Shown here one piece after another: positions 27,433 through 53,044 of a stretch of 64,000 nucleotides of DNA. This DNA comes from Pseudomonadota bacterium (GTDB taxonomy: Bacteria; Pseudomonadota; Gammaproteobacteria; Xanthomonadales; Rhodanobacteraceae). The stretch covers positions 1-64,000 of the forward strand of contig JAKPAN010000033.1 in the NCBI GenBank assembly GCA_029779475.1. The letters are read 5' to 3'. Each line of letters begins with the position of its first letter. The stretch's first letter is position 1. The notes under the pieces are model-generated. The model had not been told where the DNA came from, did no database searches, and saw only the letters and a program-made list of their open reading frames with translations. The position numbers and the translations under genes were made by a program.

Positions 27433-28209
27433 ATGAACCTGCGTCTTCGACGCGTCCTGCAGGCCGCGGCCTGGTGCGCGGCCACCTTTTCGACGGCAGC
27501 GTTTGCCGAGCCTTCGACGCCTGCCGACACGCCTGTGCCGCTGACGTTGTCCGGTGTCGATCAGGTGACGCCTTGGTTTAACAGCTTGCCCGCCACGAGC
27601 ATCGGCACTGTCTGGTATTGCGGCAGCAATCCGCCGATCTACGCGACGCGCGTGATGGCCTACGCGGGCTTCAGCCATCCGCCGCCGGACTTAACGCCGG
27701 CGGTCGGCGAGGTGTTCTATACGCACGTCGTGATCGGTCATCCGGGCAATCCCTGCACGGGGAGCGCGGTCGGGCTCGAACTGATCCTGCCGCCCGGCAT
27801 CGAGATCGCCAATTCGGCGAACGATCCCGTGTTCTGCTTCTCGATGGTGCCCAACCCGAGCAAGCACCTGATCAATCTCGACACCGATCCCGACTACGGT
27901 TGCCCGACGAGTTTTCCGCTCGGGCTCGAAGGCTATGCGGTGCGCCCGTTGCACGGCGGCCTGAGCAACAGCGGCGCATGGGGCATGGCGATGGGGTTCT
28001 ATCTGGAGATCCTGATTCCGCTGCGCGCGACGCAGGTGCAGTTCGGCAACAACCCGATCAAGTGGCGCGTGAATCCGGATGTCGGCGTGGTCGGTTACGC
28101 GCAGGTGGGGCCGCAGGTGAACGGCGACGTGATCTTCCGCGACTCGATCGACGCCAATCTGCTCAACCTCGACCTGTGCACGCTGACGCCGACGCCGGCC
28201 GGATGCTGA
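27433..28209 (+). CDS. Secreted protein of unknown function with VIFRDSIDANLLNLDLC tail
   Basis: Signal peptide MNLRLRRVLQAAAWCAATFSTAAFA; no domain recognised. Confidence 0.75.
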   Translation: MNLRLRRVLQAAAWCAATFSTAAFAEPSTPADTPVPLTLSGVDQVTPWFNSLPATSIGTVWYCGSNPPIYATRVMAYAGFSHPPPDLTPAVGEVFYTHVVIGHPGNPCTGSAVGLELILPPGIEIANSANDPVFCFSMVPNPSKHLINLDTDPDYGCPTSFPLGLEGYAVRPLHGGLSNSGAWGMAMGFYLEILIPLRATQVQFGNNPIKWRVNPDVGVVGYAQVGPQVNGDVIFRDSIDANLLNLDLCTLTPTPAGC

Positions 28210-28318
28210 AGGCTCGAAGCTGGCGATGCGAGGCTGACAGTCCGTTGCCGAACCTTTCGGCGTTGCATTGCCGGCGGGCGCGCGCGAAGCTGCGCGCCCA
28301 ACGTTTTTCCGGGCCGAC

Positions 28319-31075
28319 ATGCCGCAGCGCCTCGTCCTCATCGACGGTTCCTCGTACCTGTACCGCGCGTTCCATGCGCTGCCGCCGCTGACCAACGCCA
28401 TCGGCGAGCCGACCGGCGCGCTGTTCGGCGTGGTCAACATGCTGCGCGCGATCCTCAAGCAGAAGCCCGACTACGCGGCCTTCGTGCAGGACGCGCCCGG
28501 CCCGACGTTCCGCGACGAACTCTATCCCGCGGACAAGGCGACGCGGCAGGCCACGCCCGACGATCTCATCGCGCAGGTCGAGCCGATGCTCGCGATCGTC
28601 GCCGCGCTCGGATTCCCGATCCTGCGCGTGTCCGGCGTGGAAGCCGACGACGTCATCGGCACGCTCGCCAGGCGCGCGGCCGCGGACGGCATCGACGTCG
28701 TCGTCTCGACCAGCGACAAGGACTTCGCCCAACTCGTCGCGCCCGGCATCACGCTGGTCAACACGATGACGAACACGACGCTGGATGCGGCCGGCATCGT
28801 CGAGAAATTCGGCGTGCGGCCGGAGCAGATCGTCGACTACCTCGCGCTCATGGGCGACAGCGTCGACAACATTCCCGGCGTCGAGAAATGCGGCCCGAAG
28901 ACCGCGGCGAAGTGGCTGGCCGAATACGGCACGCTCGACGGCGTCATCGCGCACGCGGCGGATGTCGGCGGCAAGATCGGCGAGAACCTGCGCAAGGCGC
29001 TGCCGCAACTGCCGCTGTCGCGCCAGCTCGCGACGATCAAAACCGACGTGCCGCTCGATCTCGGTCCGCGCGAACTGCCGCTGCGCGAACGCGACGTGGA
29101 AACCCTGCGCGGCCTGTACAAGCGCTACGAATTCAATGCGGCGCTCAAGGAACTCGACGCGGGCAACGGCAGCGCAGCCGAAGCCGCGCTCGCGCCGGCG
29201 GTTGTCGCAGAAGAGGCTTCGGGCGAAGCCGGATCCGCCACGCCTGCCCGGGCATCCGAACCCGCGGTCCCCGGCGAATACGACCTCGTCACCACGCCTG
29301 CGCAACTTGACGCGTGGCTCGACAAACTCCGCGCCGCGCCGCTGATCGCGTTCGACACCGAGACGACCTCGCTTGATCCGATGCTCGCCGACATCGTCGG
29401 CCTGTCGTTCGCCGTCGAGCCCGGTCGCGCGTGCTACATCCCGGTCGGCCACGACTATCCCGGCGCGCCGGCGCAGTTGCCGCGCGACACGGTGCTTGCG
29501 GCGCTGAGGCCCATTCTCGAGGATCCCGCGCGGCCCAAGCTCGGCCAGCATGCGAAGTACGACATCAACGTGCTGTCGAGCGCGGGCATCGAAGTGCGCG
29601 GCGTCGAACACGACACGATGCTCGAATCCTACGTGCTGCATTCCACTTGGCGGCACGACATGGACACGCAGGCCAAGCGCGTGCTCGGCGTCGACACGAT
29701 CCATTACGAGGACGTTGCCGGCAAGGGCGCGAAGCAGATTTCGTTTTCGCAGGTCGACGTCGACACCGCGTGCCGCTACGCCGCCGAAGACGCCGACATC
29801 ACGCTGCGCCTGCATCTCGCGCAATGGCCGAAGTTCGATGGCGAACCGAAGCTGCGCTCGGTCTACGAAGCGATCGAAATGCCGCTCGTGCCCGTGCTCG
29901 CGCGCATGGAGCAACGCGGCGTGCTCATCGACGGCGTGGCGTTGAAGAAGCAGAGCCACGAACTCGCCAAGCGCATGCACGAGTTGACCGAGCGCGCCTA
30001 CGCGCTCGCCGGCCACAGCTTCAGCCTCGACTCGACCAAACAGCTCGGCGCGATCCTGTTCGACGAGCTGAAACTGCCCGTCGTCGTGAAGACGCCTGGC
30101 GGGCAACCTTCGACGAACGAAGAAGCGCTCGACGCGATCGCCGACCAGCACGAACTGCCGCGCGTGATCCTCGACTATCGCGGCCTCGCGAAATTGCGCA
30201 GCACCTACACCGAAAAGCTCGCCGAAATCGTCAACCCGCGCACCGGCCGCGTGCATACGAGTTACGGCCAGGCGACGGCGGCGACTGGCCGCCTGTCCTC
30301 GTCCGATCCGAACCTGCAGAACATCCCGATCCGCACCGAGGAAGGCCGCAAGATCCGGCAGGCCTTCGTCGCGCCGTCTGGCTGGAAGGTGGTGGCAGCG
30401 GATTATTCGCAGATCGAACTGCGCATCATGGCGCACCTGTCGGGCGACGCCGGTCTGCTCGCCGCGTTCCACGGCAACCAGGACGTGCACCGTGCGACCG
30501 CGGCCGAAGTGTTCGGTCTGCCGCCGAGCGAGGTCGATGCGAACCAGCGCCGCGCCGCGAAGGCGATCAACTTCGGCCTCATGTACGGCATGAGCGCGTT
30601 CGGCCTCGCGCGCCAGCTCGGCGTGCCGCGCGGCGAAGCGCAGGACTACATGGCGCGTTACTTCGCGCGCTATCCGGGCGTGGCGACGTTCATGGAGGAA
30701 ACGCGCGAGCAGGCGCGGCGCGACGGTTATGTCGAAACGCTGTTCGGTCGCCGCCTGTATCTCGACTACATCAACTCGCGCAACCAGGCGCAGCGCGCGG
30801 GCGCCGAACGCGCCGCGATCAACGCGCCGATGCAGGGCACCGCGGCCGACATCATCAAGCGCGCGATGATTTCCGTCGACGCTTGGCTCGCCGGGCAGGC
30901 CGATCGCGCACGCATGCTCATGCAAGTGCACGACGAACTCGTATTCGAAGTGCGCGAGGACGCAGTCGAAGAGATCGTCGCCGGCGTCCGCGAGCGCATG
31001 TCGGGCGCGGCGCAGCTGTCGGTGCCGCTCGTCGTCGACGTCGGCGTCGGCGCGAACTGGGACGAGGCGCATTGA
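28319..31075 (+). CDS. polA: DNA polymerase I
   Basis: LIDGSSYLYRAFHALPPL (5' nuclease), FDTETTSLDPMLADIVGLSFAVEPG (3' exonuclease), ADYSQIELRIMAHLSGD and VHDELVFEV (polymerase). Confidence 0.98.
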   Translation: MPQRLVLIDGSSYLYRAFHALPPLTNAIGEPTGALFGVVNMLRAILKQKPDYAAFVQDAPGPTFRDELYPADKATRQATPDDLIAQVEPMLAIVAALGFPILRVSGVEADDVIGTLARRAAADGIDVVVSTSDKDFAQLVAPGITLVNTMTNTTLDAAGIVEKFGVRPEQIVDYLALMGDSVDNIPGVEKCGPKTAAKWLAEYGTLDGVIAHAADVGGKIGENLRKALPQLPLSRQLATIKTDVPLDLGPRELPLRERDVETLRGLYKRYEFNAALKELDAGNGSAAEAALAPAVVAEEASGEAGSATPARASEPAVPGEYDLVTTPAQLDAWLDKLRAAPLIAFDTETTSLDPMLADIVGLSFAVEPGRACYIPVGHDYPGAPAQLPRDTVLAALRPILEDPARPKLGQHAKYDINVLSSAGIEVRGVEHDTMLESYVLHSTWRHDMDTQAKRVLGVDTIHYEDVAGKGAKQISFSQVDVDTACRYAAEDADITLRLHLAQWPKFDGEPKLRSVYEAIEMPLVPVLARMEQRGVLIDGVALKKQSHELAKRMHELTERAYALAGHSFSLDSTKQLGAILFDELKLPVVVKTPGGQPSTNEEALDAIADQHELPRVILDYRGLAKLRSTYTEKLAEIVNPRTGRVHTSYGQATAATGRLSSSDPNLQNIPIRTEEGRKIRQAFVAPSGWKVVAADYSQIELRIMAHLSGDAGLLAAFHGNQDVHRATAAEVFGLPPSEVDANQRRAAKAINFGLMYGMSAFGLARQLGVPRGEAQDYMARYFARYPGVATFMEETREQARRDGYVETLFGRRLYLDYINSRNQAQRAGAERAAINAPMQGTAADIIKRAMISVDAWLAGQADRARMLMQVHDELVFEVREDAVEEIVAGVRERMSGAAQLSVPLVVDVGVGANWDEAH

Positions 31076-31219
31076 CGGCGACGGTTCTGTTTCGCGAGCA
31101 ATGGAAAAAATTTCATCCGAATCATATGGTTGCTATCCGGCTGTTGCGCAGATGAATCCGTGATAAATGCATCCGACGGCGTACTGGAAACTTTTCCCCT
31201 CTGTCCCGATCTATGTACC

Positions 31220-31344
31220 CGGACGCACGCAACGGCGTCCCGGTTGACTCACCTCCCTGAGTGCAACCCCGAAGTTCCGATCCCTCCCCAGATCGGTCTT
31301 CCCCGCCCCGAGGGCTCCCCCTGGCCCTCGGGGCTTTTCTTTTC
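31220..31344 (+). ncRNA. Probable sX13-like trans-acting sRNA with C-rich loops, downstream of polA
   Basis: Four successive hairpins: GGACGC/GCGTCC (31221-31240); ACTCA-CCTCCC-TGAGT (31247-31262); CCGATC-CCTCCCCA-GATCGG (31277-31296); CCCCGAGGGC-TCCCCCTG-GCCCTCGGGG + CTTTTCTTTT (31306-31344). 5' end is estimated. Confidence 0.72.
31306..31344 (+). terminator. Rho-independent terminator of the sRNA (or polA)
   Basis: 10-bp GC-rich perfect stem followed by CTTTTCTTTT. Confidence 0.9.
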
Positions 31345-31656
31345 TGCGATCCGTCCGGAATCGCTGCGGCTTGCAAGGCTCGGGACGCGTCGCCCGGGCT
31401 CGCCTGCAGCAAGTTCATCTGCAGCCCATACAGCCGTGCTTCTCGCGAGCCGCGTGGTTTCGAAAAGGGCTTGGGCGCGACCGCAGAAGGCAGGCTCCCG
31501 GTACGTTCGCAGTTGCTTTCGACCGAGAACGTCATGTTGGCCGGATTTTTTGCGGCTGGACGTATGCCAGTCACGTTGCGCCTTCGCGGCGACATGACCA
31601 AGCCTTTGCGACGGAGTCCCGAAGGCCGGGCTGTCTCTACGCCAAGCGGTGGCGTG

Positions 31657-33009
31657 TCAAGTCGCCAAAGCGGCGAGCAACGCCGCACGCGGCAGCTTGC
31701 CGGTGCCGTTGCGCGGCAGCGCGGCGACCTTGCGCAGCGGGCGCGGCAGGAAGGCGGCGTCGATCGAGTGGCGCAGTTCGTCGAGCAGGTCGGTTTCCGA
31801 GCGCGTCGGCGCGACCACGAGCGCGGCGATGCGGCGCACGCCGAACGCGTCGGCCTCGTCGAGCTGGATGACGACGGCGTCCTCGACGCCGCGCAGCGCG
31901 GCGAGGCGCCGCGTGAGGTCGCCGAGCGAGGCGCGCTTGCCGGCGATCTCGACGAGGTCGGCATGGCGGCCGCACAGGCGGAAGCGGTTGTCGGGCAGCA
32001 ATTCGACGAGATCGGCGAGCGCAACCGGCGTTTCGAAATGCGCGGCATCGACGAGCGTGCCGTCGGGTTGCGGACGCAGCGCGATGCCGTCGCGCAATTG
32101 CCAATCCTCGCCGAGCGCGCAGCGGCGTTGTGCGATGACGCAGGTTTCGGTGGAGCCGAACACTTCGACGACGGGTGCGCCGTAGCGCGCTTCCGCGGCG
32201 GCGGCGAGTTCCTGCGGCAACGGCGCCGTCGCCGAGGTGATCGCCGCGAGCGGCGGCAATTCGAGCGGTTCGCGCAGCAGCGCGCGCAGGTGCACGGGCG
32301 TGGTCACCAGCACGCGCGGCGCGTCGACGCGCGCCAGCGCGGCGGCGACGTCGGCCGGGAACAGCGGATGCCCGTCGTGCACGGCGAACGGCGCGAGCAG
32401 CGGCAGCAGCACCGACATCTCGATGCCGTACATGTGCTGCGGTGGCACGGTGGCGACGACGTGCGCGGTTGTCGAGCCGGGCAGGAATTCGCGCAATCCG
32501 CGCGCATTCGCCGCGGTGCTCGCTCGGAACGAGGCCCAGGTTTTCGCATGTGGCTTCGGCTGGCCGGTGCTGCCGGAGGTGAAACCGATGGCGACGGTCT
32601 GCGCGGCGTCGATTCGCGGAACCGTCGTCGCGCGGCCGGTCGCGCCGAGCGCCGGGATGCGCCGCACCGACGCGCCGAATGCGTCGCTGTCGCCGAGCGC
32701 GTAACTGGCGGGATACGCAGCGAGCGTTTCCGCGATCGCGGCCGGCGTGCGCGCGGCGGGCAACAGGTTGGTCTGGCCGCGGCTGGCGATCGCGCAGAAG
32801 GCGGCGAGGAAGGCGTAGCGGTCTTCGCAGAGGTTGATCGCGCAAGCGCGATCGGGGAGTTGGGCGGCGATCGCCGCGACGTCGGCGAGGAAGCTGCCGG
32901 TGTCGACGGGGCGTCCATTCCGCCACGCGACGATGCGCGCACCGTCGGTGTCGCCCAGCAACGGCTGCTGCGCGCCACCCAGTGCGCGCGATTCCACAAC
33001 GGCCGACAT
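31657..33009 (-). CDS. AMP-dependent ligase (acyl/aryl-ACP or -CoA ligase) of the pigment pathway
   Basis: AIGFTSGSTGQPKPHAKTWASF (P-loop), VEVFGSTETCVIAQRR, NRFRLCGRHADLVEIAGKRASLGDL. Confidence 0.9.
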   Translation of the reverse strand: MSAVVESRALGGAQQPLLGDTDGARIVAWRNGRPVDTGSFLADVAAIAAQLPDRACAINLCEDRYAFLAAFCAIASRGQTNLLPAARTPAAIAETLAAYPASYALGDSDAFGASVRRIPALGATGRATTVPRIDAAQTVAIGFTSGSTGQPKPHAKTWASFRASTAANARGLREFLPGSTTAHVVATVPPQHMYGIEMSVLLPLLAPFAVHDGHPLFPADVAAALARVDAPRVLVTTPVHLRALLREPLELPPLAAITSATAPLPQELAAAAEARYGAPVVEVFGSTETCVIAQRRCALGEDWQLRDGIALRPQPDGTLVDAAHFETPVALADLVELLPDNRFRLCGRHADLVEIAGKRASLGDLTRRLAALRGVEDAVVIQLDEADAFGVRRIAALVVAPTRSETDLLDELRHSIDAAFLPRPLRKVAALPRNGTGKLPRAALLAALAT

Positions 33010-51300: not shown

Positions 51301-53044
51301 CACGATCATCATCGGTGCCGCGAACGCGACGGTCACGCTCGGCAACCTCGCGCAGACCTACGACGGCACGCAGCGCGCGGCGACGGCATCGACGATGCCG
51401 CCCAATCTCGCGGTCAGCCTGACCTACGACGGCAGCGCGACGCCGCCGATCAGCGCGGGCACCTACACCGTCGTCGCCACGATCACGCAGCCGGGTTACA
51501 GCGGCAGCGCGAGCGGCACGCTGGTGGTGTCGAAGAAGGCGGAGACGGTGACGTTGGCGAACCTGTCGGCAACCTACGACGGCAATTCGCACGCGGCCAG
51601 CGCGACGACGTCGCCGGACACGGTCGCCGTCACGATCACCTACGACGGCAGCACGACGGCACCGACGAACGCGGGCAGCTATGCGGTCGTTGCGAACGTC
51701 TCCGACGCCAACCACAGCGGTTCGGCGAGCGGCACGCTGACCATCGCCAAGGCCTCGGCGACGGTGGCGCTGTCGAACCTGACGCAGATCTGGGACGGCA
51801 CGGCGCGCCCGGTCACGGTGACGACGACGCCGAACGTGACGACCAGCGTGACCTACGACGGCAGCGCGACCGCGCCGACCGACGTCGGCACGTACAGCGT
51901 AGCCGCGACGGTGACCGACCCGAACTACACCGGCAGCGCGAACGGCACGCTGCACGTCGTCAATGGCGACGCGCAGGCCATCGCGGCCAACGGTGCCACC
52001 ACGTTCACCGGCACCGCCGGCCAGCCGCTCGCGGGCGCGCTGCCGTCGGTCAAGGTCACCGACGCGGGCGGCCATCCGGTCGCGGGCATCGCGGTCACGT
52101 TTGCGGCTGCATCCGGCAACGGCACGCTCAGCGGTGCGACGCAAAGCACCGACCAGAACGGCATCGCCACGCTCAGCGGCTGGACGCTCGACGCGACACC
52201 GGGCACCGACACCGTCACGGCCAGCGCGGCCGGCGTCACCGGCGCGGTCACCTTCACCGCCAACGGCGCGGCGGCGAGTGGTGCGCTCAGCGTGACGATC
52301 ACCGACAACCGCACGGCGACGCAGGTCGGTCGCGAGTTGACGTACACGATCACGATCGGCAATGCCGGCTCGTCGAACATGAGCGGCATCCACGTCGCCG
52401 ACACGCTGCCCGCCGAACTCGACGGCGCGAACGCGCACTGGCAGTGCATCGCCGTCACCGGCGCGAGCTGCGCGGCGAGCGGCAACGGCGATCTCGACCA
52501 GACGGTCAGCCTGCCGGCCCACAGCAGCGTGATCTATCTGCTCACTGCGACGGTGATCGGCGAGGACGCGAGCGGCCTGGTCAGCAACAGCGTCGAGGTG
52601 ACCAACGGCAGCGACGCGATCACCCGCACGGACGACACCGCGGTCGTGCTGTTCCGCGACGGCTTCGAGCTCGGCGGCGACGGTTCCGAACCGTGGCCGG
52701 CCGGCGCGGCCGTCGTCGCGCTCGGTTCGCTCGATGCCGCGCATGCGCTCGATGTCGGCGTCGACGCCGCGCAGCTCGGTTCGCTGCAACGCGTGACGCT
52801 CGCCCAGGCCGGCGACGGCACGTTCCGCATCGAGGCGATCCGCATCGACGCGACCGTCTACGTCCGCCTCGTCGCGCGCACCGCGCAAGGCGAAGCGGCG
52901 ACCGAGTGGAGCGCGCTCGGCGGCGACCACGTCGCGCTCGTCCTCGACGGTGCGCGCCTCGACCTCGTCGGCGCCAAAGCCGATCTCGGCCTCACGCTCG
53001 CGCAGGGCGGCACGTTCGCGGTCGGCGGCGTGTCGCGTCACTGA
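39389..53044 (+). CDS. Giant (about 4,551 aa) secreted mosaic protein: parallel beta-helix, MBG repeats, unassigned ~150-aa tandem repeats, Big_1 and DUF11-like domains
   Basis: Single ORF; extended signal region MRTIRELLSALAQAG...RRLASGLLCLLAMSAGPATAADWYASPSGNDTNACDSAGEPCKTIQAAISKA; MBG units such as TITLGNLNQDYTGAPRDVSVATNPVGLVTSITYTPAGHTNAGSYAVHAEITDPNYSGSADGTLTITKA; ends near FRDGFELGGDGSEPWPAG plus a ~110-aa tail. Good terminator follows. Confidence 0.93.
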   Translation: MRTIRELLSALAQAGNGLTEPRRERRSDSASGTPPTAHSAVCPRRLASGLLCLLAMSAGPATAADWYASPSGNDTNACDSAGEPCKTIQAAISKAGANDTVHVGQGAYPFAGTIQIPSTKNGLKLIGDNSPFASSSTPGNVSPAANASQLSAASSCAGLTCTGMIWINGAQDVVIQNLFLRVNHGKSNEGIVATGNVNGLVLRNNYLQITATGGKTNAISLNMAAGSNSDQNSTGGSPYYSGIYVTLDGNVVQPTGTVASSRAVVSDYVAGVFHANQFAGSSQDMRLRYLTANARGSGFDIDGNYVYGAGLWITTPNDGSSLVHIHNNHFIAPGTPGAPASPLNASSVLDPDFASLKLVGSSNPTIVENNEFAGYANRYRGLWIQNWSGVTIRDNVFTPNANYNGLSSAILVGNKEVWNGAPAPRQLAVTLLRNTFNAGYANANSRAIVFIDDNDASGTATAGSLLVGDANAANANNFATGLKWYVGLDEHTCNAGGSGLNCSTAAPTNSPLGVGINYTSGSSGNTQGRPFKWDVAALGNKFGGKLVADMTPAEYTAIAGKIYDKVDNSALGKVDYGSMPVSTTGTINFSPTTFAYNGQPHAISATLQEDNSATCDVTPETVTAVGSTPVNATCTSPGYHVTASVDINVTKGVGNARLSETSFTYAAADIVLLPSMVEESASCSATPPTVRDAGHYSIHVTCAGSNYDADSTVGVDVAKAASHIVLNPTSFTYDNTEHALHAQLADESSAACAGVAPASVRTVGSHEVSVPACDGVNYMAPAANLTATVDGGANAVRRVSSHGQADAFFSTIDAALADVGTQDGDTLEMAPGVYSGGIVLTKGIKLVGSGGYDTPMFGLSLLADPTPNVVLDGGNAAATGIAIAPNVQGVEITGFEIRNFTGDCISGAQGNHFLSVHDNLVHHCGNWGVYANGIAGIHDVTIAHNAVHDTGDRAIVLWNGFKRDIEITENHVWNAGTTAISLDDGSAAGIAITDNTIEDSGDTGISALQLTGSGMPGDPSGPNLIAHNTISNPGRFGITLMIPNGTGNDSGDGAIVVEHNDITGGANSGGYASDRAGISVVRRYYGGAAQGQVDATSGVVIRDNTVADFNHTANANHEAYGIVVEGLGSSVYRNTLTNNQIGLQIQQGNAGYPGNSTVDATEHSDWFDRGDAPYTCVSLGQGADANDILSNTTPQREVPLGAAMIGERVENMTTHARYCSINSAIAAAVDNDVLVADAGVYAEDVVINKAITLKGAKAGINAGVGGSRDGNGAGETILVPANEEGGLTLSSYGKAVVKINADDVTLDGFVIDTDNTAIDSHIDLNGAGPDVSGGVFANGNGLTLTNLVVRNAIYAGIDGGYDNGQPAQDGNGISDSRFINCDGASYGIGIALEQNFYAKVTGNRMDAVRTGIQLDNNYQAAPTANYAPELSGNQIQAKRVGIWANLFYQSASTYHVTNNTITAASGGAGQWSGIWVESMQDAQTIELASNTIDASGADAGRTRVGYLLNNIVSSAASSAAIGGGGVSNVDIGVLATDATRYTGSVNDFVVRDVDFVNIAKGALYVEDTTQTPGSAKLTMGAGNTFGSNVAHKLVLSGTAPEASGAVDEVFVRSARDFVFGAAVSSAGNPVCYANAGAPFCAVANASINAGIAAVSAGGTVNVESGTFAENVVVGKQVALQGPHFGVAGDAGARGTGEAIISPASGNGVKVLADGVVVDGLTVQNTQDNAIVSGGNFGGASASVSIINNRVLDVQAGNGIYTNGPYPAATDWTIRHNLVRNVVSNIGSGINYWAASGGLVADNHVEQSGFAGIQAVNSRNVQVLHNTIASTAHSGINVGTTNAGAIADALTVIGNSLSDTNTGASVAEGGLTLSDGATNVVFACNSVAGNGSNGFATGAGSASAKVFHNAFTTANSISQNQGGSFAIGSNWYGGGVATIGGGNAAGARVADVLGSNPIGNANCGDNTPTQLVAAVGSTPQSAPVNTAFGSVLRARLEDALGGAVAGEVLTFTAPVSGASATLGTSSGSTNYNGEVTSTATANATAGGPYNVAVDSGSLHAAFALTNTQGSATITLGNLNQDYTGAPRDVSVATNPVGLVTSITYTPAGHTNAGSYAVHAEITDPNYSGSADGTLTITKATGTVAWDNTSFVYSGSSPTVTAHIAEESGATCTVSGTVGPNVGNYPVSANCTSSNYNASGSTAVTITPQPTTITLSHLSQPYDGAPKSVVATTSPTAGVAVAITYNGSAAPPTAVGSYAVAATVTNANYSGSATATLNIVDSNGDIALVLNGPVDPIHVGDKAQYAATMLANPLLHAGERFGYDVVVSKSNGTPLAATDLATMEVFYGGDWVDSAALFPAGVPFDLVDGNLVYHFPEGIPGYANGFPIEDASWTWNFRFAFATEGTYTTTATLVQGIGGAAMSPPVSASIATVVKAALPPTDIHLVLAGPADHVVLGNVAEYTGTMLANPALHAGETFFVKVAIGKSGGAMTAADFTSMQIWLGDRWVNGSDLGVTFTSDGNGNLVYLFPQSQLPGGFPIEDAQWSWNFRFVYASTGVYTATAQVIPAYQANLANPDVLASAAIATTVDAAPIVPPTAHLVLLGPVDDVQAHTPAEYTGTLVADHTQLTSAYWMRVRLSKTGGAMTPADLEKMEIYAGTWIDATGDIHSAMQQDGNDVVYYFPQPNGAFTISDDVWSWRFRFTYADAGEYTAVADLVDWVEVDPLTAPSLAHASLTTNVVPQAANIQIALQGPVAGIVVGQPAQYVGTLRADPLPDASELFFVQVRLHKSTGQMQVSDLSKMELYNGGWQDATATLQGEFAQDHGDLVYLFPKPEADAGFPIDEPEWSWQFRFTYADAAVYTATAQVVHASDLSPASDAVTIFTDVAPQPADVALQLNGPVADVQANEPAAYIGRLTNTGAALGENAYVKVHITLDNDLLTPADVTAEVLVGGDWFVGSLASDGNGGLVVDFPDASGFPIDAGYDYTHHFRITYHKTGMFSATAQVIGVGSGDVYATSGIHTQVVARSNVTVQVLIDPASLHAVYDGGQHAAAATTLPAGHPLVVTYDDGSGPTTMAPTNAGTYVVIAGVDVGDAPYVGSASAILVIDKAPSAITINGADLHQSYGSTHAVSASASPISSGHVDVTYNGSATPPSAVGTYSVLATLVDPNYTAAPKSAVLTISDAAAITITAESSQAMALVGEDAPYTDFVDYTGTLRNTGEPTSQKVHTVISVVRIDDGNTTGENPIAIDAADVEACIYDPSGWDAQDPGNHNGCPQDYESLVFSQGSGAVNGRPAVTFRYPVNPAYDQALPTIDPAAITPPAKFRFKRGDYQVHVSLVGTDGTVYASAFDGTTVPEASIAYAGATSGQAEDALLSQTRLRNTGGRVDGNVIVRVTLSDAASGPGNVVPLDASDVDFAYQLGDSYVTLPWAGNAVDGGLVTYFGPVSGFPLEDGYDATTAGRGIFHREGSYRLTYEVLDAATQTTMFAHSVTAPLTIGPNQVNFTLSDLSQVYDGTPRTVTVTPNGVPHTTVYEPLLGASCPASPAGSNTTPPTNAGAYCVYVNATGTYQGTAQGTLVIARANVVVTLDDNDGTIDGTIHRTFDGHPQTVSSGVQNLPAVLARVTYNGDVLPPTAAGTYSVVATVDEPNYTGSTSGTLIIAADGGATIVLDGAVAGTITRTYNGSAQAVTATTTPAGIANTVTYVGDGATVYPLSTTAPTNAGQYHVVATTTDANYTPVSASGTLVIGAASAAITLDAGTLSATYDGQTHAVTATTNPPDLAYSVTYDGSVTPPVSAGSYAVVATVTAPGRSGSASGTLTIAKATGVVSFSATNATFDGTSHSIGAVISQEPTNGAACTLTPTGEYPRINAGSTTLSATCNGANYTASGSTTLMVSPKPVTIALSGLGSFPYTGSPYAAMAAVSGEVSGFPAGTVVTYAPGGASAPIAVGSYDVVATLDAASTNYTATPANGTIIIGAANATVTLGNLAQTYDGTQRAATASTMPPNLAVSLTYDGSATPPISAGTYTVVATITQPGYSGSASGTLVVSKKAETVTLANLSATYDGNSHAASATTSPDTVAVTITYDGSTTAPTNAGSYAVVANVSDANHSGSASGTLTIAKASATVALSNLTQIWDGTARPVTVTTTPNVTTSVTYDGSATAPTDVGTYSVAATVTDPNYTGSANGTLHVVNGDAQAIAANGATTFTGTAGQPLAGALPSVKVTDAGGHPVAGIAVTFAAASGNGTLSGATQSTDQNGIATLSGWTLDATPGTDTVTASAAGVTGAVTFTANGAAASGALSVTITDNRTATQVGRELTYTITIGNAGSSNMSGIHVADTLPAELDGANAHWQCIAVTGASCAASGNGDLDQTVSLPAHSSVIYLLTATVIGEDASGLVSNSVEVTNGSDAITRTDDTAVVLFRDGFELGGDGSEPWPAGAAVVALGSLDAAHALDVGVDAAQLGSLQRVTLAQAGDGTFRIEAIRIDATVYVRLVARTAQGEAATEWSALGGDHVALVLDGARLDLVGAKADLGLTLAQGGTFAVGGVSRH
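46232..48470 (+). repeat. Five tandem ~140-158-aa repeat units inside the giant protein
   Basis: Units start about 46232, 46706, 47174, 47615, 48056; shared xIxLxLxGPVxxVxxxxxAxYxGTL...MTxADLxxMEIyxGxWxxx...GNLVYxFPxxxGFPIxDxxWSWxFRFTYAxxGxYTATAQV. Confidence 0.85.
49885..51955 (+). repeat. Array of MBG-type repeats (about 70 aa each)
   Basis: Repeated [V/I]TLxNLxxTYDGxxxxVTATTxPxxxxxxVTYDGSxTxPxxAGxYxVVATVTxxNYxGSASGTLxIxKA; additional MBG-like units at about 41130-41760, 45595-46215 and 48475-48940. Confidence 0.85.

Follow-up and report, generated by a model that had tools for sequence, protein, structure and literature searches.

An sX13-family small RNA downstream of polA in Rhodanobacteraceae, with a sigma-E-type promoter motif, and its candidate relatives across Gammaproteobacteria

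The window, by which we mean the whole 64-kb stretch of DNA that was analysed, comes from a member of Rhodanobacteraceae, the sister family of Xanthomonadaceae, and carries downstream of polA an RNA whose core is of a known kind, a new member of the sX13 family. We consider it very probable that this is a stand-alone, trans-acting small RNA (sRNA) of ~120 nt with its own RpoE/AlgU-type promoter, whose C-rich loops would repress G-rich translation starts without Hfq. An earlier note on this DNA had read the element as an sX13 homologue with a conserved polA-linked position, and that reading is supported: RF02232 matches above its gathering score, and both loop conservation and covarying stems are seen among relatives. 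The features that appear to be new, judging from sequence comparison, are a sigma-E-type promoter, an extra 5' hairpin, and recognizable relatives that occupy the corresponding place in dozens of Gammaproteobacteria families. The earlier note had neither the promoter nor the distribution across the class, nor had it related the hairpin to the published 5' end; promoter, hairpin and class-wide spread are worth following.

Table 1 Features of the polA-sRNA locus in window coordinates.
Feature	Position	Strand	Basis or remark
polA (DNA polymerase I)	28268..31075	+	upstream neighbour; listing begins at first TTG
-35 element AACTT (within GGAAACTTT), sigma-E type	31189..31193	+	aligned, fixed position, 55 Rhodanobacteraceae loci
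-10 element TCTAT, sigma-E type	31210..31214	+	aligned in Rhodanobacteraceae loci; cf. AACTT-N16-TCGAA before rpoE of the same genome
Whole sRNA gene by covariance models R1/R2	31217..31344	+	134.4 / 120.7 bits
Predicted transcription start (G)	31221	+	7 nt past -10; promoter spacing; G in 48/55
5' hairpin GGACGC-A-CG-CAA-CG-GCGUCC	about 31221..31241	+	straddles Rfam/published 5' end at 31231; covariation
Rfam RF02232 sX13 match	31231..31340	+	full model 1-115, 57.8 bits, gathering 50, E 3.6e-8
Hairpin SL1, loop CCUCCC (anti-Shine-Dalgarno)	31242..31268	+	fold; C-rich loops in 53/53
Hairpin SL2, loop CCUCCCCA	31271..31301	+	fold; folds of relatives
Intrinsic terminator, 12-pair stem, loop CCCCCU, T-rich tail	31305..31344	+	fold

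Identity, fold and genomic setting

When 4227 Rfam families were searched, RF02232 (sX13) gave the sole above-threshold match in the window. This covariance search, which the earlier note had proposed, returned a match to the full length of the model, beginning 155 bp past the polA stop; the sX13 gene of Xcv lies 175 bp downstream of polA (PMC3771888). The extent of 31220-31344 first assigned to the element nearly equals the best extent found here, which is the R1/R2 match together with the predicted +1. The gap of 580 bp described after polA is also present, as the next substantial open reading frame (31657-33009, minus strand) ends ~580 bp beyond polA. Among relatives, in which the same neighbour was recovered with the PolA C-terminus as tblastn query, polA lies directly upstream at 59 of the 70 loci examined, with gaps of 88-507 nt, in agreement with the claimed conservation of position. 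The true start of polA is probably the ATG at 28319-28321. A 969-aa open frame antisense to polA (28163-31072, minus strand) is no gene but a shadow frame that arises from codon bias in high-GC DNA.

Folding of 31200-31350 yielded four consecutive hairpins with a minimum free energy of -63.9 kcal/mol, against -43.7 ± 3.9 kcal/mol for dinucleotide shuffles of the same interval (z -5.2; 0/200 as low). This low energy and the T-rich tail bear out the earlier description of four hairpins ending in a textbook terminator. The loops are, in order, CAA, CCUCCC, CCUCCCCA and CCCCCU. Both C-rich middle loops had been read correctly before, whereas the terminator loop, previously given as TCCCCCTG, is strictly CCCCCU because a U-G pair closes it. 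The terminator stem-loop occupies 31305-31334 and is followed by TTTTCTTTTC. Three stem-loops of the RNA have C-rich apical loops, and the last of these is the terminator; the first loop has a run of three C, the second and third have runs of four and five C.

Matches to RF02232 were found in 86/88 relatives within Rhodanobacteraceae (E<=0.001), mostly at 30-65 bits, and in 99/149 related genomes; most genomes of a Xanthomonadaceae-like family score 99-136 bits, compared with 57.8 for the window RNA. An alignment of 53 Rhodanobacteraceae loci was used for fold and covariation. Folded individually, all 53 sequences form exactly four hairpins with three C-rich apical loops, and RNAalifold finds 24 consensus pairs with compensatory changes in 17, so that the comparison of stems and loops across relatives, also suggested in the earlier note, came out in favour of an RNA of this family. 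In a class-wide alignment of 93 members, compensatory changes occur at all 40 pairs and 87.7% of the cells are paired, versus 61% when shuffled and 31-52% after sliding, figures that lean towards the model because this alignment was fitted to it.

With sX13 of Xanthomonas the window RNA shares the polA linkage, the three stems with C-rich apical loops and the terminator; it differs in its loops (CCUCCC/CCUCCCCA/CCCCCU), in the extra covarying 5' hairpin and in the clear sigma-E-type promoter. Rhodanobacteraceae were formerly classed inside Xanthomonadaceae. The difference between the present distribution and the statement that the sX13 gene is exclusive to Xanthomonadaceae (PMC3771888) is therefore partly one of taxonomy.

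Promoter motif and 5' end

Across 55 Rhodanobacteraceae loci, AACTT stands at -39 to -35 relative to the hairpin loop and a TCTAA-like element at -18 to -14, and the exact pattern with a 16-base spacer is present in 42 of them, versus 0.6 expected after shuffling. At family level the promoter is of the GGAACTT-N16-TCTAA type of sigma-E regulon sRNAs, of which the window carries the variant GGAAACTT-N16-TCTAT; the pattern GGAAACTTN{15,17}TCTAT has one exact occurrence in the genome. This genome encodes one RpoE above the curated cut-off, with AACTT-N16-TCGAA upstream of its gene, and most rpoE genes of related genomes have a GAACTT-N16/17-TC layout upstream, two genomes showing a weaker GAACTA form and one being unreadable. 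From the resemblance of AACTT-N16-TCTAT to the rpoE promoters of Rhodanobacteraceae, we infer sigma-E control of the window RNA, which would make it a sigma-E-driven anti-Shine-Dalgarno sRNA. In Xanthomonadaceae the promoter position is kept and the boxes differ (GAACC...TATAAC); because of this different look, sigma-E control may fail for the original sX13.

The predicted +1, G31221, is the first base of the 5' hairpin. Both the 115-nt RNA as published and the model in Rfam start within the hairpin loop (AACG...), which leaves half of the hairpin upstream of that 5' end. In the Rhodanobacteraceae alignment, column pair 8-24 is AU in 26 and GC in 25 sequences, and pair 9-22 is UA in 28, CG in 19 and UG in 5; each of these two neighbouring pairs has been exchanged (A-U/G-C in one, U-A/C-G in the other) in roughly half of the sequences, and G-U intermediates are present. 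Among the 93 class-wide sequences, 94% of the cells of the hairpin are paired. The 5' region of Xanthomonas sX13 has been called unstructured (PMC3771888), as seen on in vitro transcripts that began at the published 5' end; this is a description of the Xanthomonas RNA and stands outside the criteria of the Rfam model. Such a region is the expected look of an RNA that lacks the upstream arm of the hairpin: in the window, conserved bases upstream form the covarying hairpin together with the 5' region, which would be free if the RNA began at 31231. As the hairpin straddles the published 5' end, 31220 appears to be a better upstream boundary for the window RNA than Rfam's 31231. A point against an RNA with the full hairpin is that the published 5' end sits 10 nt inside it; the upstream arm may be removed, or may lie outside the transcript.

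The same inverted repeat could instead be a DNA operator placed over the start site, an idea favoured by its overlap with the start-site zone and by the published RNA beginning in its loop. We regard this as improbable, because its bases vary as compensating pairs of several types, G-U wobbles included, where a protein operator would keep its letters. We give equally little credence to constitutive transcription by the housekeeping sigma-70 with a coincidental AACTT/TCTAT. The window promoter lacks a full TCTAA and the Xanthomonadaceae have a TATAAC-like -10, as such transcription would allow, yet many relatives carry the exact AACTT-N16-TCTAA, in the same layout as their rpoE promoters, the motif recurs in 49/60 held-out relatives (see below), and a search for a sigma-70 consensus site at the locus found none. 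It is very improbable that the element is mainly the terminator or 3' UTR of polA, its C-rich hairpins being a by-product or an sRNA cut from the polA mRNA. The element does lie 145-155 nt past polA on the same strand with a terminator at its end, but the separate promoter motif keeps its fixed distance in 42/55 relatives, several class members have promoter and RNA with no polA within the fetched upstream stretch, and the three upstream hairpins, for which a terminator has no need, covary. A separately transcribed sRNA with a sigma-E-type promoter is the reading carried forward here.

Relatives across the class and other polA-linked or C-rich RNAs

Covariance model R1, built from Rhodanobacteraceae only, matched 121/200 genomes of the order and 37/274 of the class. 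We re-examined 84 of its matches, nearly all outside the two core families, and 45 of them lie <600 nt downstream of polA, the search being position-blind. A second model, R2, likewise started from Rhodanobacteraceae and used with a cut-off of E<=1e-4 for the class count, matched in 171/369 sampled gammaproteobacterial genomes, 147 of them at E<1e-6 (counts read from the table of matches). From these we set aside 60 matches, from 40 families, that are absent from both models. In this held-out set, polA ends no more than 600 nt upstream of 38 matches (25 families), a placement with a chance of ~1e-4 per match in a 3-Mb genome, and 49 have a sigma-E-type promoter, versus 2.2 expected. Outside Gammaproteobacteria, five sampled genomes matched R2 at E 2.7e-5 to 7.9e-5, and the phylum sample gave none below 1e-6; because all five stand at E 2.7e-5 or worse, E 1e-6 was taken as a safe line. 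Most of the class-wide family is unannotated, as Rfam names only 1/20 such loci (anti-hemB).

Convergence, in which C-rich hairpins joined to GC-rich terminators match R1 and R2 with no homology to the window RNA, would explain why one match is a tRNA, why several unlinked matches are gene-end terminators with C-rich loops, and why five genomes outside the class were matched; the E-values, moreover, are rough. A position-blind search would hardly place 38/60 held-out matches within 600 nt of polA and 49/60 behind a sigma-E-type promoter by such convergence, however, and neither the out-of-class genomes below 1e-6 nor the betaproteobacterial polA loci yielded a match. We therefore judge convergence unlikely and prefer homology for the class-wide set.

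The tRNA (L221) was rejected as a false positive, and the further weak R2 matches, on C28 and C153 of the genome that contains the window and at position 53012 of the window, look like ordinary terminators. The same genome contains two C-rich-loop hairpins at a gene 3' end (L369; G000:C223:10870-10988, minus strand; R2 E 7e-6), which match no Rfam family above threshold; comparable pairs of hairpins at gene ends are found in Xanthomonadaceae (L234-L236). In some Rhodanobacteraceae there is a second RNA that has C-rich loops and is unlinked to polA (L237 2501-2636, plus strand; L238 801-922, minus strand; L139; L145), again with no Rfam match, and in L237 and L238 a GGAACTT-N16-TCTAA promoter stands just upstream. 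Tandem sX13-like RNAs were seen at five loci (L202 801-1559, minus strand; L319; L204; L218; L333), with four copies in ~760 nt in one gammaproteobacterial family (f173) and two in others, several having their own GGAACT...GGTCTGA promoter-like motif. In a Hainich groundwater gammaproteobacterium (L088 3811-4400), polA and an sX13-like RNA are followed by a putative engB, recognized by eye, on the opposite strand, a gene order equal to polA-spf-engB of enterics and polA-ersA-engB of Pseudomonas.

ErsA of Pseudomonas (Pseudomon-1, RF01719), like the window RNA, lies directly after polA at all Rfam-matched loci, and its GAACTT-N17-TCAGA promoter and C-rich terminator loop are akin to those found here. 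ErsA is sigma-22 (AlgU) dependent (PMC5819304, PMC8575079); the window RNA combines polA linkage with a promoter of the sigma-22/sigma-E type, the latter recognized from sequence only. Model R2, built without any Pseudomonas sequence, gave a match where ErsA lies in almost every Pseudomonas locus; in the 518 kb searched, most of these E-values fell between 1e-5 and 2e-3. Azotobacter reached only E 0.7, R1 scored ErsA at only E 0.14-0.39, and RF01719 gave no match on the window at gathering or E<=1. ErsA aligns to R2 mostly through its terminator and 5' hairpin and has no match to SL1 with its CCUCCC loop, and in the same 518-kb search Spot 42 and a window terminator score E ~0.01. These comparisons make common descent of the window RNA family and ErsA likely, with ErsA a weaker relative. 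Our literature search found no paper naming sX13 together with ErsA.

Spot 42 (RF00021), described in the earlier note as polA-linked and confirmed as such by a Rahnella locus, shares this position with the window RNA but has no C-rich loops and is published as Hfq-dependent. It scores only E 0.008-0.04 against R2, at which no kinship is demonstrated, and the RF00021 covariance search of the window returned no match. The alpha-r7 sRNAs of Alphaproteobacteria have been described as neighbours of polA that contain C-rich motifs and three stem-loops (PMC3771888). They resemble the window RNA by this description, and the R2 phylum sample had no match outside the class below 1e-6. Anti-hemB, or Burkholderia RNA 7 (RF02837), matches the window weakly (E 0.024; 20.7 bits versus a gathering score of 49.5), and one polA-unlinked class-wide relative (L207 2523-2628) passes the gathering score of RF02837, from which this family may touch the sX13-like one. 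RNAIII of Staphylococcus aureus is unrelated in sequence, size and host. It is alike in action to sX13, in that its C-rich loops target G-rich sites close to where translation begins (PMC3771888).

On balance, we lean towards a picture in which sX13 and ErsA would be twigs of one ancient polA-linked, sigma-E-driven sRNA family with anti-Shine-Dalgarno loops, present in ~75 Gammaproteobacteria families and mostly unannotated, which would tie the repression of G-rich translation starts to envelope stress; the 5' end published for sX13 would then leave out the 5' hairpin.

Predicted action and meaning for the family

A mechanism is assigned to the window RNA because of its membership in the sX13 family. 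Its own extracytoplasmic-stress (RpoE/AlgU-type) promoter would drive an sRNA of ~120 nt, the 5' end of which would be closed by the 5' hairpin. The three C-rich apical loops would be presented to G-rich Shine-Dalgarno or start-codon-proximal sequences, and pairing would lower translation, with no need of Hfq, by masking a G-rich translational enhancer or the ribosome site. Sites of the AGGAGG type and GGGG runs are predicted pairing partners of the three loops, CCUCCC, CCUCCCCA and CCCCCU. For the host, both the start at 31221 and the targets are predictions. In Xanthomonas, repression by sX13, which acts on mRNAs with 4G motifs, requires both the C-rich loops and the G-rich target sites, Hfq is dispensable, and both NaCl and a temperature of 37 °C raise the level of sX13 (PMC3771888).

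At the site of a validated Xanthomonas target, hfq of the window's own genome reads AUG-UCC-AAG-GGG. Codon 4 is GGG in 23/27 genomes with Gly4, and in four ORFs of the window GGG accounts for 4% of the Gly codons; predicted duplex energies between loops and hfq were no better than with shuffled hfq. Because E. coli hfq carries the same AAGGGG, the run of four G is no specific evidence and was rejected as proof of a target. In some genomes, hfq codon 3 is AAA rather than AAG, which breaks the GGGG run, and several of these instead have GGGG in the Shine-Dalgarno region (G045, G052, G055, G063, G068 and G026, among the hfq starts L170-L199).

Taken alone, the window adds one further sX13, and the result for the wider family matters more. 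The sX13-type sRNA has so far been known mostly from work on plant-pathogenic Xanthomonas and, under the name ErsA, on Pseudomonas; the class-wide result would place these in one evolutionary frame, with a likely common inducing signal (envelope stress via RpoE/AlgU) and a list of loci. The sX13 paper closes by asking whether polA loci elsewhere encode sRNAs that act alike (PMC3771888), and with the locus list this question becomes directly testable at the polA loci of other bacteria.
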